DNA from: Acinetobacter sp. TGL-Y2 | Lineage (GTDB): Bacteria; Pseudomonadota; Gammaproteobacteria; Pseudomonadales; Moraxellaceae | DNA: 64,000 bases | Assembly (NCBI RefSeq): GCF_001612555.1 | Contig: NZ_CP015110.1 | Location: 2,914,001 to 2,978,000 of the forward strand | Reading direction: 5' to 3' | In this document: positions 56,364 to 64,000 of the stretch, piece after piece | How positions within the stretch are numbered: position 1 is the stretch's first letter | Layout of the letters: each line of letters starts with the position of its first letter | Program-made: the position numbers and the translations under genes | The notes under the pieces: generated by a model | What the model saw: the letters and a program-made list of their open reading frames with translations, nothing else | What the model was told of the DNA's origin: nothing | Databases searched by the model: none

Positions 56364-57476
56364 ATGAATAGTGCGACCACTCGCATCTTATCTTTAGATG
56401 GCAATAATGCACAGTCACTGACAATTCGCGCAAAAGCATTTGTATTCCATGACCCGATCTCGCAACAGTTACTGCATTTAATTGAGCGCTTAGCACCGAG
56501 TGATGCACCGATTTTAATCCGAGGTGAAACAGGCACAGGTAAAGAGTTGGTGGCACGCCACATCCATTCACTCAGTGGTCGAAAAGGTCCTTTCTTGGCG
56601 GTAAATTGCAGCGCGATCAATGATCAATTGGCTGAAAGTGAATTTTTTGGGCATGAAGTGGGTTCATTTACGGGTGCAGTTGGACAACGTAAAGGTTGGT
56701 TTGAGTCCGCTGAAGGTGGAACGCTTTTTTTAGACGAAATTGGTGATTTACCACTGAAATTGCAAGTTAAATTACTGCGTGTACTTCAAGAAAAGGAAGT
56801 GGTTCGGGTGGGTTCAAGACAGGCAATTCCTATTCATGTCCGTTTACTGACAGCAACCAATGTCGACTTAGAAGAAGCAGTCAAAGCGGAAAGGTTTAGA
56901 CAAGACTTATTGTTTCGAATCAATATTGCTCAACTAGAATTGACACCTCTGCGAGAACGACAAGGTGACATTTTACCTTTATTTCAACACTTTATTGATC
57001 TCTATAGCAAAAAAGCACAACGCATTGAGCCGCTCAAAATATCATCAATGGCAATCGCACTGTTATATCGTTATCCTTGGCCAGGTAATATTCGTGAACT
57101 TGAAAACATCGCGCACTATGCGGTGTTGATTGCCGAAGGAAATACCATTCAAAAAGAACATTTAAAGTTCAATAAAATTTTTGAAAATTTTGAACATATT
57201 CCATCATCATCAGCAAAATTGGATCAATGTGACCTGAGCCCTTATGACATTATTGAAGTACAGTTAGAAAAAATATTTTCTTCTTCGCACATTCCTGAGA
57301 ACATTTGGGATCGTTTGGAAAGTACCATTATTGCGACTGCTTACGAATATTGCTATCAAAATCAAGTCAAAACTGCCGAACTGTTAGGCATTAGCCGCAA
57401 TGTCATTCGAACTTTATTAAAACGACATCACCTGTTACATGAAGGACGACATTTTAATATTGAACAAGACGCCTAA
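56364..57476 (+). CDS. Sigma-54 enhancer-binding regulator without sensor domain (SfnR-like)
   Basis: This 370-residue AAA+ activator of sigma-54 RNA polymerase has Walker A GETGTGKE (54-61), Walker B GTLFLDE (119-125), arginine-finger region RQDLLFRI and a Fis-type helix-turn-helix at the C-terminus ([17 protein letters not shown]). The sigma-54 contact loop is GSFTGA (100-105) instead of GAFTGA. Only about 25 residues precede the AAA+ domain, so there is no receiver, PAS or GAF domain. The [10 protein letters not shown] start recalls SfnR of Pseudomonas. It is likely constitutively competent and controlled by its level or by a partner. Its targets are probably the adjacent sigma-54 promoters. 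Confidence 0.9.
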
Positions 57477-57587: not shown

Positions 57588-58454
57588 TCAAAATACCTTT
57601 AAAAATCTAAAATTCACGCGATTGTCTTCTTTAAAACCATTTTCCACATCAATATCACGTCCATACGTCAGCAATAGATTGGTTGTCGCAGTAGGAGAAT
57701 ATGCCCCACCTAACCAAAATTTGGATTGTGTCGTGCTATCTGCATCCACACCTCTCACTTCGGTATCACCTGCATCACTATAGGAAAGTCCTGCACGTAG
57801 GTCTGCTTTTTCATTGAGGAAATATCGACCACTGGTTTGTAATTGGTAACCAAGATCTTGCTTTAATTTGCCACCACCCGCTAAGTCATCATTATCGCCA
57901 TAAATGGTTGCATCCGCAGCAACATCCCATGCAAATTGGGGGATGATCCGAGTCGAAAATGCAGCTTGAAGATTGAGCTTGTATCGATTTTCACCCAAAT
58001 TTAATGCATCATGTTTGGAGTATTCACCCGTTGGAAGATACAAATAAGGGCTAATCCCAAAATATTGCTTCTTGTCGGTATCATTTAACAACCAAATCGG
58101 TGCCGCTAAAATAAGATCACCTAAGCCACTCGAAGAACCCCAGCTCGATATGTCTTTATCCGCTTCTAATTGACCAAAGGGAATTAATATCTGTGGTGCA
58201 ACCCGATATCCTGCAATATCGGTGTAGTGAACAAAACGAGCAATCCCCACATTGGACGTCAGCTCATTCTCCCCCGCAACCTTATGACTACCGCTATACA
58301 GCTTGTCACGATTTGCATGTTGTAAATACAACAATGCCAAATTGGTTCCAGCAGGTGCCGCATCATAATCACCTGAATCTAAGTCGACAGCATAACTTGA
58401 AATGGAGAATGTTGAAATAAGCAATGCTGCTGATAAAGTTCTAAACTTATTCAT
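57588..58454 (-). CDS. Outer-membrane transporter of the phenol MetA/SphA-like family (PF13557)
   Basis: This 288-residue beta-barrel protein has a signal peptide (1-22, ending SYA). The mature part starts VDLDSGDYDAAPAGTN, a typical PF13557 beginning, has repeated amphipathic strands such as FGISPYLYLPTGEY, and ends with Phe, as barrels folded by the BAM complex do. Relatives lie in aromatic or hydrophobic-compound degradation clusters and may admit the substrate. A sigma-54-like promoter lies upstream. It is divergent from the ABC-importer operon and convergent with the regulator. Confidence 0.82.
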   Translation of the reverse strand: MNKFRTLSAALLISTFSISSYAVDLDSGDYDAAPAGTNLALLYLQHANRDKLYSGSHKVAGENELTSNVGIARFVHYTDIAGYRVAPQILIPFGQLEADKDISSWGSSSGLGDLILAAPIWLLNDTDKKQYFGISPYLYLPTGEYSKHDALNLGENRYKLNLQAAFSTRIIPQFAWDVAADATIYGDNDDLAGGGKLKQDLGYQLQTSGRYFLNEKADLRAGLSYSDAGDTEVRGVDADSTTQSKFWLGGAYSPTATTNLLLTYGRDIDVENGFKEDNRVNFRFLKVF

Positions 58455-58535
58455 AAAATTTTAAAATCCCATAATTTATTTAAATGTTTTAAGCCTTGAT
58501 TTTTTAAAGATTAAAAATGACTTGGGATGTTCTTT

Positions 58536-58552
58536 GCAAACAGCATACCAAC
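58536..58552 (-). promoter_or_regulatory. Sigma-54 promoter of the outer-membrane transporter gene
   Basis: On the minus strand TTGGTATGCTGTTTGCA has the -24 GG and -12 GC spaced by 10 bp and a good -12 TTTGCA box, against the consensus TTGGCAC-N5-TTGCA. Initiation near 58525 leaves a leader of about 70 nt. A plus-strand match of similar strength (58523-58539) shares the same TGCA core. Confidence 0.7.
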
Positions 58553-58645
58553 ACAAAATAAAACAATAAATGATTGATATATTTAACTTAAATAAAATTT
58601 TAAAAAATAAAATGTTGAATTTAGAACAACATATTGATCCGCAAT

Positions 58646-58661
58646 TGTTGATATTCCAACA
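58646..58661. promoter_or_regulatory. TGTTG-N6-CAACA site 1
   Basis: TGTTG-ATATTC-CAACA, extended to 7-bp arms (ATTGTTG and CAACAAT). It lies about 120-135 bp upstream of the predicted start of the outer-membrane transporter transcript, a usual distance for a sigma-54 enhancer. Confidence 0.65.
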
Positions 58662-58813
58662 ATCCATTTAAAATTCACCAACACAGCGTTTTTTGAAAAA
58701 AGGACGTATTCTTTTGATCATGTTCAAAGTGATTTTCAAAGTAAAATTAAATTCTGACAGTCACAGCCTCATATCAAAAAATCTTAAACTTATTCAATCT
58801 AGCCATAAACAAC

Positions 58814-58829
58814 TGTTGAAAAAGCAACA
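58814..58829. promoter_or_regulatory. TGTTG-N6-CAACA site 2
   Basis: TGTTG-AAAAAG-CAACA. It is 168 bp from site 1 and 33 bp from site 3, near whole helical turns. It sits about 110-125 bp upstream of the plus-strand sigma-54-like element's start. Confidence 0.65.
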
Positions 58830-58846
58830 TTTGGTTGAGAAAAATA

Positions 58847-58862
58847 TGTTGATAAATCAACA
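58847..58862. promoter_or_regulatory. TGTTG-N6-CAACA site 3
   Basis: TGTTG-ATAAAT-CAACA is a perfect palindrome with 7-bp arms (TGTTGAT and ATCAACA). It lies about 80-95 bp upstream of the start predicted for the plus-strand operon. Confidence 0.65.
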
Positions 58863-58913
58863 CTTAAAATAAAAATAAACACTAAGCCATTGAAGTTATT
58901 TAAATAAAAAAAC

Positions 58914-58929
58914 TGGCATAAAAAATGAA
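58914..58929 (+). promoter_or_regulatory. Weak sigma-54-like promoter of the ABC-importer operon
   Basis: TGGCAT-AAAAA-ATGAA has a perfect -24 half but TGA instead of TGC at -12. Initiation near 58940 would give a leader of about 65 nt before 59005, mirroring the other side. The -12 mismatch keeps this tentative. Confidence 0.4.
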
Positions 58930-59004
58930 ATGGTAAATCCATGTTGTCGCATTTTTGAATGAGGCATTTTAAAAAAGATCACTATTTTTAGAGTTATTCA
59001 GTTT

Positions 59005-60291
59005 ATGTCTGCTTCTACACAAAGCTTAGTTTCTATTTTTGCTGAAAATGTTCAATCCAAAGCGCAAAAGGTTGCATTACGCCATAAGCAACTCGGGATT
59101 TGGCAGGAATGGACATGGCTAGATTTAGCTCACGTCGTTCAAAAATATGTCGCGGTTTTAAATGAATTTAAAATTAACTTTGAAAGCGAGAAAAATCTAA
59201 GCCTTCTGATTTCAAGTTCTCCGAATGTGCATTTTTTCGCATTCAGCATAGCGTCACAGATATTAGGGATCTCTGTTCAGTTGATTGAATCACAACAACA
59301 GCAACACGATTCAAATCTATTTCCATCACTCCAGATCATACAACCTGATTTGATTTTCATTGAAGATTTGAAACAACTCGATGACCGCACAACACTTGGG
59401 CTGAATCCAACGCTCAACTTAAATAGCATCATTTTTTATTTGCAAGATAACCGTTTAAATCCCAAACAGCTCAATCATACTTATTCAATTTTAGATAGAA
59501 TAAATCAATTTGATGATCTTGAATTTAATGGTCTTGAATTTAATCACCCAAATAACAAAGCTCTTAAAAATTCAGCCGAACCAAATGAATTTGATGAAAA
59601 GCAAATCGCATTCATTTTTCACAAAATTAAAAGTGGTCAACATTTTTATGCATTTTATCACGCTCAAAGCTTGATTGAAGAAGCAGAAAATTTGATTGAA
59701 ACACATCATCTCAATCATGACGAACAAGCATTTATTACACGTGGTTTTGCCAGTCATGATCATATTCGCTATTTGTTTACGAGTTGGCTAATCGCTGGCT
59801 TTTGTCTGAATATTCCTGAAAATTTCGAGACTCGTGATCAAGACCGTCAGATTATTTCTCCGACATTGATCATTGGGACATCATCGACCTATGCGCGGGC
59901 TGAAAACATCGTTCAGCAGAAGCTGCCTAACCTAAACAGCTGGTTGTTTAAAATCTTTCCAAACTTAAAAAACTGGCATAGCAGTTTTTCAAATCAACAG
60001 TCTAATACTTCTGGGCTATTTGAAACATTATTCAATGCATTTTTTAAACAATCTATTTTGGCTTCATTAGGTTTTTCAAATTTGCGTACTGCGATTGTTG
60101 TCGGTGAATCAAGCTCAGAGCGAACGCGTCAATTTTATCAACGTTTAGGCATCAAACTTTCTTCTTGGCAGTCTCAAACCTATTGGAAAAACAAGCAGTT
60201 TGATCCCAAGGGTGATCCATCGAGCGACTTAAAAACATTCAATTATCACTCATCTTCTGGAGAGTCGCATGTCCATCCCCACCACCCATGA
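59005..60291 (+). CDS. Truncated, degenerate acyl-CoA-synthetase-like (ANL) protein
   Basis: This 428-residue protein aligns by eye with the N-terminal two thirds of long-chain acyl-CoA synthetases that accompany Liv-type importers (about 650 residues). It starts like them (VALRHKQLGIWQEWTW at about 23-38), but the ATP P-loop expected as YTSGTTGxPKG reads FIFHKIKSGQHFYAF, and the YGQTE motif reads WQSQTYW, after which the protein ends. The C-terminal domain with the adenylation Lys is absent. It should not be an active ligase. It overlaps the ABC ATPase gene by 23 bp and remains open, so it is probably translated, either as a pseudoenzyme or as a gene in decay. Confidence 0.75.
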   Translation: MSASTQSLVSIFAENVQSKAQKVALRHKQLGIWQEWTWLDLAHVVQKYVAVLNEFKINFESEKNLSLLISSSPNVHFFAFSIASQILGISVQLIESQQQQHDSNLFPSLQIIQPDLIFIEDLKQLDDRTTLGLNPTLNLNSIIFYLQDNRLNPKQLNHTYSILDRINQFDDLEFNGLEFNHPNNKALKNSAEPNEFDEKQIAFIFHKIKSGQHFYAFYHAQSLIEEAENLIETHHLNHDEQAFITRGFASHDHIRYLFTSWLIAGFCLNIPENFETRDQDRQIISPTLIIGTSSTYARAENIVQQKLPNLNSWLFKIFPNLKNWHSSFSNQQSNTSGLFETLFNAFFKQSILASLGFSNLRTAIVVGESSSERTRQFYQRLGIKLSSWQSQTYWKNKQFDPKGDPSSDLKTFNYHSSSGESHVHPHHP

Positions 60292-61066
60292 AGATATATT
60301 AATCCTTGAACATATACATTTGTCTTTTGGTGCATCCGACGTTTTAAAAGATCTCAGTCTTAAAGTAAAACAAGGTGAAATTTGTGCCTTGATTGGTCCG
60401 AATGGCGCGGGGAAAAGCTCCGTCATTAACATTATTAATGGGATTTATCATCCTCAACAGGGACAAGTTTCATTTCAAGGAAAATTACTTCAGCGTTACA
60501 AAGCGAAGTACTCACCTCATTTCGGTATCGCACGTACATTTCAAAATCTTGCATTATTTAAGCAAATGTCCGTCTTAGATAATGTTTTAACAGGTCGGAT
60601 TTTACAGAGTAATTATTCACTGATTGGGGCTTTATTGCGCGTTCCATCGATCAAACAAGATGAAAATTTGCAACGTTTAGCCGTTGAAAAAATTCTCGCT
60701 CTACTTGATCTTCAACTGCATCGCGACAGTATCGTTTCTACATTGTCTTATGGCGTACAAAAGCGTGTCGAATTAGCGCGTGCTTTAGTGTCAGAACCCA
60801 CGTTACTACTTCTAGATGAACCTATGGCTGGGATGAACCATGATGAAAAACAAGATATTGCAAAATTTGTAAAACGTATTAATCAACAATTCGGCATCAC
60901 CATTTTGATGATTGAACATGACTTATCTGTGGTCATGAATATTTCAGATCACGTCATTGTTTTAGATTATGGGAAGAAAATTGCGGACAGTACACCGGCT
61001 GAAATTCAAGCGAACCCAGAAGTATTAAGTGCCTATTTGGGTGTCGCTCAGGCTCAAGCCAGTTAA
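60269..61066 (+). CDS. Branched-chain-type ABC importer ATPase (LivG-like)
   Basis: This 265-residue ATP-binding subunit has Walker A GPNGAGKSS (43-51), signature LSYGVQKRVELARAL, Walker B LLLLDEPMAGMN and the H-loop IEHDLSVVM. The LivG branch is indicated by TFQNLALFKQMSVLDNV. The ATG at 60269 has GGAGAG upstream and lies inside the end of the synthetase-like gene, so translation is coupled. Only one ATPase gene is seen; a LivF-like partner is expected beyond the right edge. Confidence 0.92.
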   Translation: MSIPTTHEDILILEHIHLSFGASDVLKDLSLKVKQGEICALIGPNGAGKSSVINIINGIYHPQQGQVSFQGKLLQRYKAKYSPHFGIARTFQNLALFKQMSVLDNVLTGRILQSNYSLIGALLRVPSIKQDENLQRLAVEKILALLDLQLHRDSIVSTLSYGVQKRVELARALVSEPTLLLLDEPMAGMNHDEKQDIAKFVKRINQQFGITILMIEHDLSVVMNISDHVIVLDYGKKIADSTPAEIQANPEVLSAYLGVAQAQAS

Positions 61067-61124: not shown

Positions 61125-62006
61125 ATGTCATTTTTCTTGGAAGTTTTACTCGGTGGCACCTTAGCTGGGGTGATGTATTCACTGGTTGCCATCGGCTTTG
61201 TTCTCATTTATCGGGCATCTGGCGTTTTCAATTTTGCTCAAGGTGCCATGGTACTTTTTGCAGCACTCACTTTTGTTAATTTAACGGAACGAGGTGTCCC
61301 TTTTGCCGTGGCTTTTATCGTCACATTATTCGTGATTTTTATTATTGTGCTGCTCATTGATACTTTGATTCTAAGGCATTTGATTAATCGTTCAGTCATT
61401 ACCCTGTTCATGGCAACACTCGGTTTAAGCTATGTGCTTGAAGGGGTTGCACAAACAGTTTGGGGGACTCAAGTACATGGTTTAGATCTCGGCATTGCAG
61501 ATATCCCTATTGATTTTCACGGCATCATGCTCAGCAAATTTGATTTATTTGCGACCGCAATCGCAGGTACTTTGGTCATTATTTTGTCACTACTCTTTAG
61601 CAAAACTCGTTTTGGTATTTCTCTTCGTGCTGTTGCCGATGATCCGCAAGCGGCACAGTCGGTGGGCATCAAGCTCAATCATGTTTGGATTATGGTTTGG
61701 ACGGTTGCAGGCTTTGTTGCATTGATTGCAGGCTTACTTTGGGGCGCGCGCGTGGGCGTTCAGTTCTCCTTATCACTCATTGTACTTAAGGCATTACCCG
61801 TACTCATTATTGGGGGGTTTACATCCATATCAGGCGCAATTGTGGGTGGGCTGATCATTGGGGCAACAGAGAAGCTCGCGGAAATTTATTTGGGTGCAAT
61901 CATCGGTTCGGGTATTGAAAACTGGTTTCCCTATCTGCTTGCAATTGCTTTCTTATTGGTACGTCCAACAGGTTTATTTGGGCAACAACAAGTCGCGAGG
62001 GTCTAG
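61125..62006 (+). CDS. Branched-chain-type ABC permease (LivH-like)
   Basis: This 293-residue inner-membrane permease has about eight helices. The LivH features are VLIYRASGVFNFAQGAMVLF near the start and RAVADDPQAAQSVGI, the ATPase-coupling segment, in the middle. It is 58 bp after the ATPase gene and 2 bp before the LivM-like gene. Confidence 0.92.
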   Translation: MSFFLEVLLGGTLAGVMYSLVAIGFVLIYRASGVFNFAQGAMVLFAALTFVNLTERGVPFAVAFIVTLFVIFIIVLLIDTLILRHLINRSVITLFMATLGLSYVLEGVAQTVWGTQVHGLDLGIADIPIDFHGIMLSKFDLFATAIAGTLVIILSLLFSKTRFGISLRAVADDPQAAQSVGIKLNHVWIMVWTVAGFVALIAGLLWGARVGVQFSLSLIVLKALPVLIIGGFTSISGAIVGGLIIGATEKLAEIYLGAIIGSGIENWFPYLLAIAFLLVRPTGLFGQQQVARV

Positions 62007-62008
62007 AC

Positions 62009-63079
62009 ATGTTTTTATTTTCACAAGCACGTCAGTTCGCTCTCAATTATCAAGATGAAAAACACATCTTTAATATACGACAACATCGCATTTTGTTCTG
62101 GTTTGCATTGGCAGTTGCATTTCTATTCATTCCTTTTGTAGGAAATGACTACGTATTTAATGCGATTTTAGTGCCTTATTTGGTTTTAGCATTGGCTGGA
62201 TTAGGACTGAACATTTTAACTGGCTATACCGGACAGCTCTCTTTAGGTTCAGCGGCTTTTATGGCGGTCGGGGCATTTGCAACCTATAACTTAGAATTGC
62301 GTATTCCCCAACTGCCTTTACTGATCAGTATATTTTTGGGTGGACTGATCGCTGCGGTTTTCGGCATTCTGGTGGGCTTACCCAGTTTAAGAATCAAAGG
62401 CTTTTATTTAATTGTCTCTACGCTTGCAGCACAGTTTTTTGTGCCTTGGCTTTTTACCCAATATGGATGGTTTACCAATTACAACGCTTCAGGTGTGATT
62501 ACTACACCTCACTTGGAAATATTGGGCATTTCACTCAACTCACCTGTCGGACACTATCTACTCACACTAGGCATAGTGGTAGGTCTCACTTTTTTAGCGA
62601 GAAATTTACTCAACAGCCAACACGGACGTAACTTTCAAGCGGTTCGTGATATGAAAACTGCTGCGATCAGTATAGGTGTGCCTGTCGCAAAAACAAAACT
62701 TTTGGCTTTCGCTATGAGCTCCTTTTATCTCGGTATTGCCGGCTCACTGTGGGCTTTTGCCTACTTAGGAACCGTTGAAGCTGATGGCTTAGACCTTAAT
62801 CGCTCATTTCAGATTTTATTCATCATCATTATTGGTGGTTTAGGCAGCTTGGCAGGGAGTTTTTTTGGGGCAGCGTTTATTGTGCTTTTACCTATCGTTT
62901 TGAGCTTAATTGGCAGTAGCTTTTTTGGGCAAACCTTCGACCAAGCACTATTACAAAATATTCAAAAAATTATATTCGGGGTCTTAATTATTTATTTTCT
63001 GATTAAGGAACCTGAAGGAATTGCTCGTCTATACACACGTTTGTATAGACGGTTAAGAGTATGGCCTTTACGTCATTAA
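62009..63079 (+). CDS. Branched-chain-type ABC permease (LivM-like)
   Basis: This 356-residue second permease shows the LivM pattern ALAGLGLNILTGYTGQLSLG and the coupling segment RDMKTAAISIGVPVAKTK. An N-terminal extension of about 30 residues precedes the first helix. It follows the LivH-like gene by 2 bp. Confidence 0.92.
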   Translation: MFLFSQARQFALNYQDEKHIFNIRQHRILFWFALAVAFLFIPFVGNDYVFNAILVPYLVLALAGLGLNILTGYTGQLSLGSAAFMAVGAFATYNLELRIPQLPLLISIFLGGLIAAVFGILVGLPSLRIKGFYLIVSTLAAQFFVPWLFTQYGWFTNYNASGVITTPHLEILGISLNSPVGHYLLTLGIVVGLTFLARNLLNSQHGRNFQAVRDMKTAAISIGVPVAKTKLLAFAMSSFYLGIAGSLWAFAYLGTVEADGLDLNRSFQILFIIIIGGLGSLAGSFFGAAFIVLLPIVLSLIGSSFFGQTFDQALLQNIQKIIFGVLIIYFLIKEPEGIARLYTRLYRRLRVWPLRH

Positions 63080-63105
63080 CAATACGATTAAATAAGAGAA
63101 TCAAA

Positions 63106-64000
63106 ATGAAAATATTTAAATCATTGTGGTTTTGGTTGATTAGCATTGCCGTCATCTTGGCGATTATTGTTTTTCTTACATCCAATAAGAAAACAGATGT
63201 GCAAAGTACAACTCATCATAAAGCTAAAAACCCAACCACTGAAACAGCGCGAGCCAATCAGACCAGTGAACTTTCAGACACTAAAGCGCAATATTTCCCT
63301 TTGCAAAGCTATCGCGTAGGACCTTATGCAGCAGGTGGAACAGGTTTCTATGGCGGCTTTATTGACTATATGAAGTCGATTAATGCACAAGGCGGTATTA
63401 ATGGCGTGAAATTGGTTTGGTCTGAATGTGAAACCGAATATGTGGTCGAGAAAGGTGTTGAATGCTATGAACGCCTGAAAAAGGGCCTAAATGGAGTACC
63501 TGCCGCTGCGACCAACCCACTTTCAGTCGGAATCGCCTACGCGACACTCGAACGCTCGACCAAAGACAAACTCCCTCTTATTACCATCAACCATGGTCGT
63601 ACCGACTCTACTGATGGTCGAGTTTTCCCCTATGTATTTCCATTACAGTTAAATCCGTATAGTGAAGTTTCTGCGATTATTAACTATTTGGGCGAAAAAA
63701 GTGGCGGTGTTGCGAATTTAAAAGGTAAGAGCATTGCGGTGCTTTATCACGGCTCTCCATACGGTAAAGAAACCATTCCTGTCATTGATGCTTTGTCTAA
63801 AAAATATGGTTTTAAAGTACACCAGATTGAAGTCCCTCATCCAGGTAATGAACAACAATCACAATGGCTTAACATTCGTCGAATTCAACCCGATTGGGTG
63901 ATTCTACGTGGTTGGGGTGTCATGAATCCTGTCGCACTCAAAACTGCACAAAAAGTCGGTTACCCGGTCGACAAAGTGATTGGTAATATTTGGAGTAACT
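63106..64000 (+). CDS. ABC importer substrate-binding protein, 3' end cut by window
   Basis: The first 298 residues of a periplasmic-binding protein of the Liv/urea/aromatic type (Peripla_BP_6) are visible. The N-terminus (about 7-25) is hydrophobic and followed by NKK, so it is a signal peptide or membrane anchor. A Ser/Thr-rich linker leads to the domain starting near FPLQSYRVGPYAAGGTG. The text NAQGGINGVKLVWSECETEY is a clear family marker. Clusters like this take up hydrophobic carboxylates, but the ligand cannot be told. The gene is 26 bp after the LivM-like gene. Confidence 0.9.
   Translation, partial: MKIFKSLWFWLISIAVILAIIVFLTSNKKTDVQSTTHHKAKNPTTETARANQTSELSDTKAQYFPLQSYRVGPYAAGGTGFYGGFIDYMKSINAQGGINGVKLVWSECETEYVVEKGVECYERLKKGLNGVPAAATNPLSVGIAYATLERSTKDKLPLITINHGRTDSTDGRVFPYVFPLQLNPYSEVSAIINYLGEKSGGVANLKGKSIAVLYHGSPYGKETIPVIDALSKKYGFKVHQIEVPHPGNEQQSQWLNIRRIQPDWVILRGWGVMNPVALKTAQKVGYPVDKVIGNIWSN

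Follow-up and report, generated by a model that had tools for sequence, protein, structure and literature searches.

A candidate SfnR-type sigma-54 control region between an outer-membrane channel gene and a LivFGHM-type importer operon in Acinetobacter sp. TGL-Y2

Introduction

In Acinetobacter sp. TGL-Y2, a gene for an outer-membrane channel-like protein and the operon of a LivFGHM-type importer point away from each other across a gap of 550 bp (Table 1). What switches these two transport units on, and in response to which signal, is the question raised by this locus. An earlier note, made from the letters of the 64-kb stretch of DNA analysed here (64,000 nucleotides, hereafter the window), had read the gap as a sigma-54 control region served by an activator encoded nearby. 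Here, the claim was followed up by motif scans, profile searches and comparison with related genomes. We consider, with a probability of roughly three in four, that the locus is a dedicated SfnR-type sigma-54 circuit controlling both the channel and the importer, that is, a sulfur-starvation switch of known type.

Results

Two pairs of operator-like sites accompany two divergent sigma-54-like promoters

A motif scan found the exact inverted repeat TGTTG-N6-CAACA three times in the gap, at the positions that the earlier note had given (58646, 58814 and 58847), and a further copy with one mismatch at 58613 that the note had overlooked. The four sites form two pairs with a spacing of 33 bp in each, one pair per divergent sigma-54-like promoter (Table 1). 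The 33 bp reported between the second and third sites is therefore correct, and the copy at 58613 supplies a second pair of the same spacing. A sigma-54-like motif was also found on each strand, as claimed: that of the outer-membrane gene lies near the -24/-12 consensus, whilst that of the importer operon is poor at -12, being without the C. The distance of 80–135 bp proposed between the sites and the predicted starts fits the distances measured here from the -24 GG, with the start taken to lie about 24 bp downstream of the GG. Transcription is predicted to begin near 58525 (minus strand) and 58940 (plus strand). The original observation was thus correct and understated.

Table 1. Features of the control region, the candidate activator and the transport genes. 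Positions are those of the window; distances run from the centre of a site to the GG of the -24 element.
Feature	Positions	Strand	Evidence or remark
Sensor-less sigma-54 activator, 370 aa, SfnR-like; AAA+ domain, C-terminal HTH-like end	56364–57476	plus	Pfam Sigma54_activat 6.2e-65, AAA lid
Outer-membrane channel-like protein (target 1)	57588–58454	minus	Pfam Phenol_MetA_deg 7.5e-35; kept near activator and/or importer in relatives
Sigma-54-like promoter of outer-membrane gene (target 1), TGGTATGCTGTTTGCA	58550–58535	minus	TGGYAT-N5-TTGC in 7/7 upstream regions, about 5 lineages
Candidate activator site 1a, one mismatch, TGTTGAATTTAGAACA	58613–58628		72 bp from -24 GG
Candidate activator site 1b, exact	58646–58661		105 bp from -24 GG
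Candidate activator site 2a, exact	58814–58829		94 bp from -24 GG
Candidate activator site 2b, exact	58847–58862		61 bp from -24 GG
Sigma-54-like promoter of importer operon, TGGCATAAAAAATGAA	58914–58929	plus	TGGCAY-N5-WTG in 11/11 loci
Short AMP-ligase-like protein, 428 aa, first gene of importer operon	59005–60291	plus	PF00501 in 8 of the 10 homologs listed
LivG-type ABC ATPase	60269–61066	plus	Profile matches
LivH-type permease	61125–62006	plus	Profile matches
LivM-type permease	62009–63079	plus	Profile matches
Periplasmic binding protein, 490 aa in all, running past the window end; LivF-type ATPase next	63061–64000	plus	Profile matches

The gap is only 25% G+C and the repeats could be products of chance in AT-rich DNA. 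However, when the gap was shuffled with its dinucleotides preserved, exact sites averaged 0.0018 per shuffle, none of 20,000 shuffles contained two or more of them, and 0.005% contained two sites of no more than one mismatch set 33 bp apart. Across the whole window there are four exact sites against 0.27 expected, a number reached in none of 100 shuffles. Given these figures and the conservation of the sites across species (see below), we rejected a chance origin, which is scarcely credible. When two mismatches are allowed, the window has 68 sites where 52 are expected, and two shuffles reached that number; two-mismatch sites were therefore counted only where their position supports them.

The fourth exact copy in the window lies at 58318–58333, within the outer-membrane gene and over the peptide LLYLQH. 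As the outer-membrane gene of one relative, G086, carries a copy with one mismatch at the corresponding position (L130:8842), this copy was set aside as probably coding and not as a regulatory site.

The whole genome (G000, a 3.69-Mb assembly) contains 20 exact sites against one for the reversed pattern. Sixteen of these lie inside ORFs: 13 of the 14 in loci L001–L014 (ORFs of at least 100 aa), two on contig 2 and the one at 58318. Of the four intergenic sites, three are in the gap and one is elsewhere (L014). When the genome was searched for the looser pattern TGTT-N8-AACA at a fitting distance from TGGYAY-N5-WTGM, the two promoters of the gap were returned and, apart from them, a single stretch within an ORF.

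Sites and promoters are kept among relatives

The importer binding protein is present in 11 of 175 genomes of the genus, including that of TGL-Y2. Among 299 genomes sampled from the family, ten encode it, and one of these (G185) belongs to another genus. The DNA upstream of the AMP-ligase-like gene was examined in each of the 11 genus genomes, as were seven regions upstream of the outer-membrane gene; G185 was left out of the 11 because its AMP-ligase-like gene sits inside a longer operon. Near-identical pairs (G014/G137 and G166/G082) mean that the 11 importer loci represent nine lineages, whilst the seven outer-membrane regions represent about five, three of them (G055, G091 and G146) being 89–96% alike. 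Non-sister upstream regions are 41–59% identical.

The TGGCAY-N5-WTG motif persists in all 11 importer loci and in ten of them a site with no more than two mismatches lies 91–94 bp from the -24 GG; in the eleventh, G075, sites lie at 75 and 60 bp. Four of the 11 have a recognisable proximal site (up to two mismatches, 59–61 bp). All seven outer-membrane promoters have a site at 92–105 bp, and five have a proximal site at 59–72 bp, three of these at two mismatches. Conservation of the sites in orthologous regions, the check that the earlier note had suggested, thus supports its reading on this point, with the promoter motif kept in 11/11 importer and 7/7 outer-membrane loci.

The two promoters differ consistently at -12. 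GC at this position is nearly invariant in sigma-54 promoters, and it is kept in 7/7 outer-membrane promoters (about five lineages). In contrast, the usual C is found in none of the 11 importer promoters, where the base is A in ten and T in one (G146, which has TTGT at -12).

Sites and promoter motifs were also found together in a set of 43 loci. There, 40 sites with no more than one mismatch precede a sigma-54-like motif, where the reversed pattern gave none, although these 40 are not independent, since the loci were hand-picked for SfnR-like activators or sfn genes, and among them are the window itself, sister genomes and more than one locus from the same genome. Nineteen of the 40 lie at 91–94 bp. 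These data bear on whether the palindromes might be operators of a repressor or of a sigma-70 regulator, with the sigma-54-like motifs a coincidence. Operators often take the form of inverted repeats spaced by 6 bp, and the plus-strand -12 element is poor, both of which would suit such a regulator; a coincidence would nonetheless have to account for a spacing between motif and site that is kept across loci, and for 40 promoter-linked sites where the control gave none. The repressor reading was rejected on these grounds and is very improbable.

A sensor-less activator adjoins the outer-membrane gene

The gene beyond the outer-membrane gene encodes a sigma-54 activator for which a Pfam profile search found neither a sensor domain nor a match to an HTH model. 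Its C-terminal HTH was read from an alignment, in which it shares the core LG[ILV][ST]R. If the earlier note, in calling it an orphan, meant a protein without relatives, the description does not hold: among the loci examined, its clade stands beside the same outer-membrane gene in five of the six relatives having that gene (L127, L128, L129, L130 and L142, not L150). The adjoining activators are 69–71% identical to it in four relatives and 60% in a fifth. In G146, a close activator lies on a different contig from the cluster. An activator of 69% identity is also on record for A. baylyi (P0017). The best activators in six of the 11 importer genomes (G014, G137, G155, G079, G166 and G082) are only 50–55% identical, which indicates that activator and target are not strictly paired. 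Within the 363 bp upstream of the activator gene no operator site with at most one mismatch was found.

The genome contains an rpoN gene, and a search for activators returned five matches with the window protein far the best. That this protein may drive both transcripts, as the earlier note proposed, is the best reading of the conserved sites, of rpoN and of this search, and the protein is the one outstanding candidate for regulator of both promoters as judged from sequence. A different sigma-54 activator, NtrC-type or other and encoded elsewhere, could be one of the other four matches. The two listed next are only 38% and 47% identical, in frames of 483 and 699 aa, and the remaining two are weaker. 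The operator does fit TGT-N10-ACA, the upstream activator sequence of NifA. However, the window protein scores 314.5 bits on the NifA model against a cut-off of 528.85 and was rejected as a member, and the target genes are unrelated by name to nitrogen fixation.

Sites also gather around activators of the SfnR-like kind. Forty such loci were scanned (L018–L057, 276,717 bases; 29 from the genus and 11 named records from outside it), giving 28 sites with at most one mismatch, four of them exact, against 2 and 0 respectively for the reversed control. At least one site was present in 18 of the 40 and none in 22. This enrichment likewise argues against a different activator, which we hold to be improbable. 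In both G055 and G146 an SfnB1-like gene is divergent from an SfnR-like activator, and its promoter has two exact sites at 92 and 63 bp. Genomes of the genus carry two to four SfnR-like activators each (eight genomes searched).

The operator recurs at sulfone and sulfonate genes

The earlier note knew of no described regulon with this operator. This could not be upheld, as the same operator stands at genes for sulfur-compound oxygenases in other bacteria and points to the SfnR kind. A search for sfnG across the order found the gene in 8 of 293 genomes, namely six of family f21 (another family of the order), the TGL-Y2 genome and G045. Nineteen sfnG loci were compared, six from f21 and 13 from the family to which TGL-Y2 belongs. 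An exact site is present within 400 bp upstream of sfnG in 6/6 of the f21 loci, at 97, 97, 109, 109, 110 and 164 bp from the GG. A second case, also from that family, is L211, where one operon encodes an alkanesulfonate monooxygenase (640 bits, cut-off 518), a protein resembling SfnB and MsuC (271 bits with the SfnB model, whose cut-off of 430.9 it does not reach) and an activator. Two sites precede this operon, an exact one at 93 bp and one with two mismatches at 62 bp, and L212 has the same arrangement and gene order. Found around SfnR-like activators and at sfnG and sulfonate loci, the operator belongs to the SfnR kind rather than to this locus alone. In the literature searched, which did not include the primary SfnR footprint papers, we found no printed consensus for an SfnR operator.

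SfnR of Pseudomonas putida DS1 is said to be a CysB-regulated, sigma-54-dependent regulator which is essential for dimethyl sulfone metabolism and regulates sfnFG. The window shares with that system a sensor-less AAA+ activator with an HTH-like end, -24/-12 motifs and an operator common to the promoters of sulfone and sulfonate oxygenases (f21 sfnG, L211 and L212). It differs in that the activator faces a channel and a LivFGHM importer and not monooxygenase genes, and in having no site at its own sfnG. Moreover, the window activator is 52% identical to that of L211 and, in an unrooted tree without an outgroup or a named SfnR sequence, falls in a separate clade from the activators of L211 and L212. 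Orthology to SfnR proper was not found by this comparison, and the protein is therefore termed SfnR-like and not SfnR. SfnR2 of P. aeruginosa PAO1, reportedly concerned with dimethyl sulfide-related utilisation, resembles it by description only, as an SfnR-like activator beside others in one genome.

In the sfn operon of P. putida, sfnA and sfnB are kept apart by predicted ABC transporters (PMC8234197), a further likeness in that ABC transporter genes are found among the sulfone genes of an SfnR system. Searching the six 16-kb f21 sfnG loci with the window importer genes (tblastn) found none of them, except for one LivG match of 25%.

The importer keeps company with organosulfur genes

In G185 a single run of genes encodes an SfnB-like protein, an MsuE-type FMN reductase (254 bits, cut-off 212.5), SfnG (622 bits, cut-off 383), the AMP-ligase-like protein, LivG, LivH, LivM, the binding protein, LivF and an activator, with an exact site at its head that lies 83 bp away from a sigma-54-like promoter. 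In G079 and G155, SfnG and an SfnB2-like gene are found about 1.1 kb beyond LivF. The importer is also near SfnB2-like genes in G014 and G137 and near SfnB1-like genes in G082 and G166. In TGL-Y2 itself, two minus-strand genes of the SfnB family lie just downstream of the importer, past the end of the window (L016:9742–12384). They score 622 and 263 bits, and only the first of these exceeds the cut-off of 430.9; an operator was looked for upstream of this pair and not found.

An exact site within 400 bp upstream of sfnG is absent from all 13 own-family loci, G045 included and with the sfnG of G185 inside its operon. The sfnG of TGL-Y2 (G000:C1:3159888–3160934; L201 and L217) has no operator in that interval. 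In this family sfnG may be controlled otherwise. These loci and the joining of MsuE and SfnG to the importer in G185 point opposite ways, and with no site at own-family sfnG or at the adjacent SfnB pair, the link to sulfur is drawn from neighbouring genes and from other families.

The same evidence bears on a circuit built as described but answering to another signal, with an SfnR-like activator recruited to a system for the import of aromatic compounds or fatty acids. The domain names of the Phenol_MetA_deg channel, the AMP-ligase-like protein and the LivFGHM importer would suit such a role, as would the bare sfnG and SfnB loci and the separate clade of the activator. Set against this is the company that the importer keeps, joined to msuE-sfnG in one genome, near sfnG in two more and near SfnB-like genes in four others. 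We regard a signal other than sulfur as unlikely, though of the alternatives it is the one to be taken most seriously.

The AMP-ligase-like protein has no Pfam match of its own. An alignment with 11 neighbouring loci and four database homologs did not reveal the usual phosphate-binding loop of adenylating enzymes, so the protein may be a non-catalytic relative.

The order of the cluster varies. In L130, L142 and L149 the genes for the outer-membrane protein and the activator come after LivF and are read the same way as the importer; in the window they are on its other side, with the outer-membrane gene divergent from it. The cluster has thus been rearranged with both promoters keeping their sites. 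In G055 (L128, 14463–15676), all that was found of the importer is LivF and a fragment of LivH, and a 33-bp pair of sites still stands upstream of the remnant.

Discussion

Under the SfnR-type reading, scarcity of sulfate would lead the cell to make the sensor-less activator, whose dimers would bind TGTTG-N6-CAACA at two sites per promoter, some three helical turns (33 bp) apart. A hexamer of the activator could then reach RNA polymerase carrying sigma-54 at both facing -24/-12 promoters by looping of the DNA and melt both. The outcome would be expression of the outer-membrane channel on the left and, on the right, of the AMP-ligase-like protein, LivGHM, the binding protein and LivF, an importer probably for an organosulfur compound. 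Binding by this activator and dependence on sigma-54 are predicted from the sites, the promoter motifs and their conserved geometry. Control by sulfur starvation and an organosulfur substrate are suggested by neighbouring genes, and we hold them with less confidence than the regulatory architecture.

More tentatively, the importer promoters may constitute a conserved class without the usual -12 C (TGGCAY-N5-WTG[A/T], 11/11 loci, nine lineages). The departure would be a product of selection that renders one of the two sides of the common control region more reliant on the activator, and the whole would be an organosulfur uptake system of a kind not yet described, under an SfnR-like regulator of its own. 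We advance this as a conjecture that is less likely than not and more doubtful than the circuit itself. The loci provide naturally occurring sigma-54-like promoters whose -12 element is altered, beside a normal partner probably served by the same activator.

For this group of sensor-less activators the comparison yields a testable operator, TGTTG-N6-CAACA, placed mostly 91–94 bp and sometimes also 59–63 bp from the -24 GG. The proposed circuit would also tie an outer-membrane channel and a LivFGHM-type importer, both without an assigned role, to the scavenging of sulfur.
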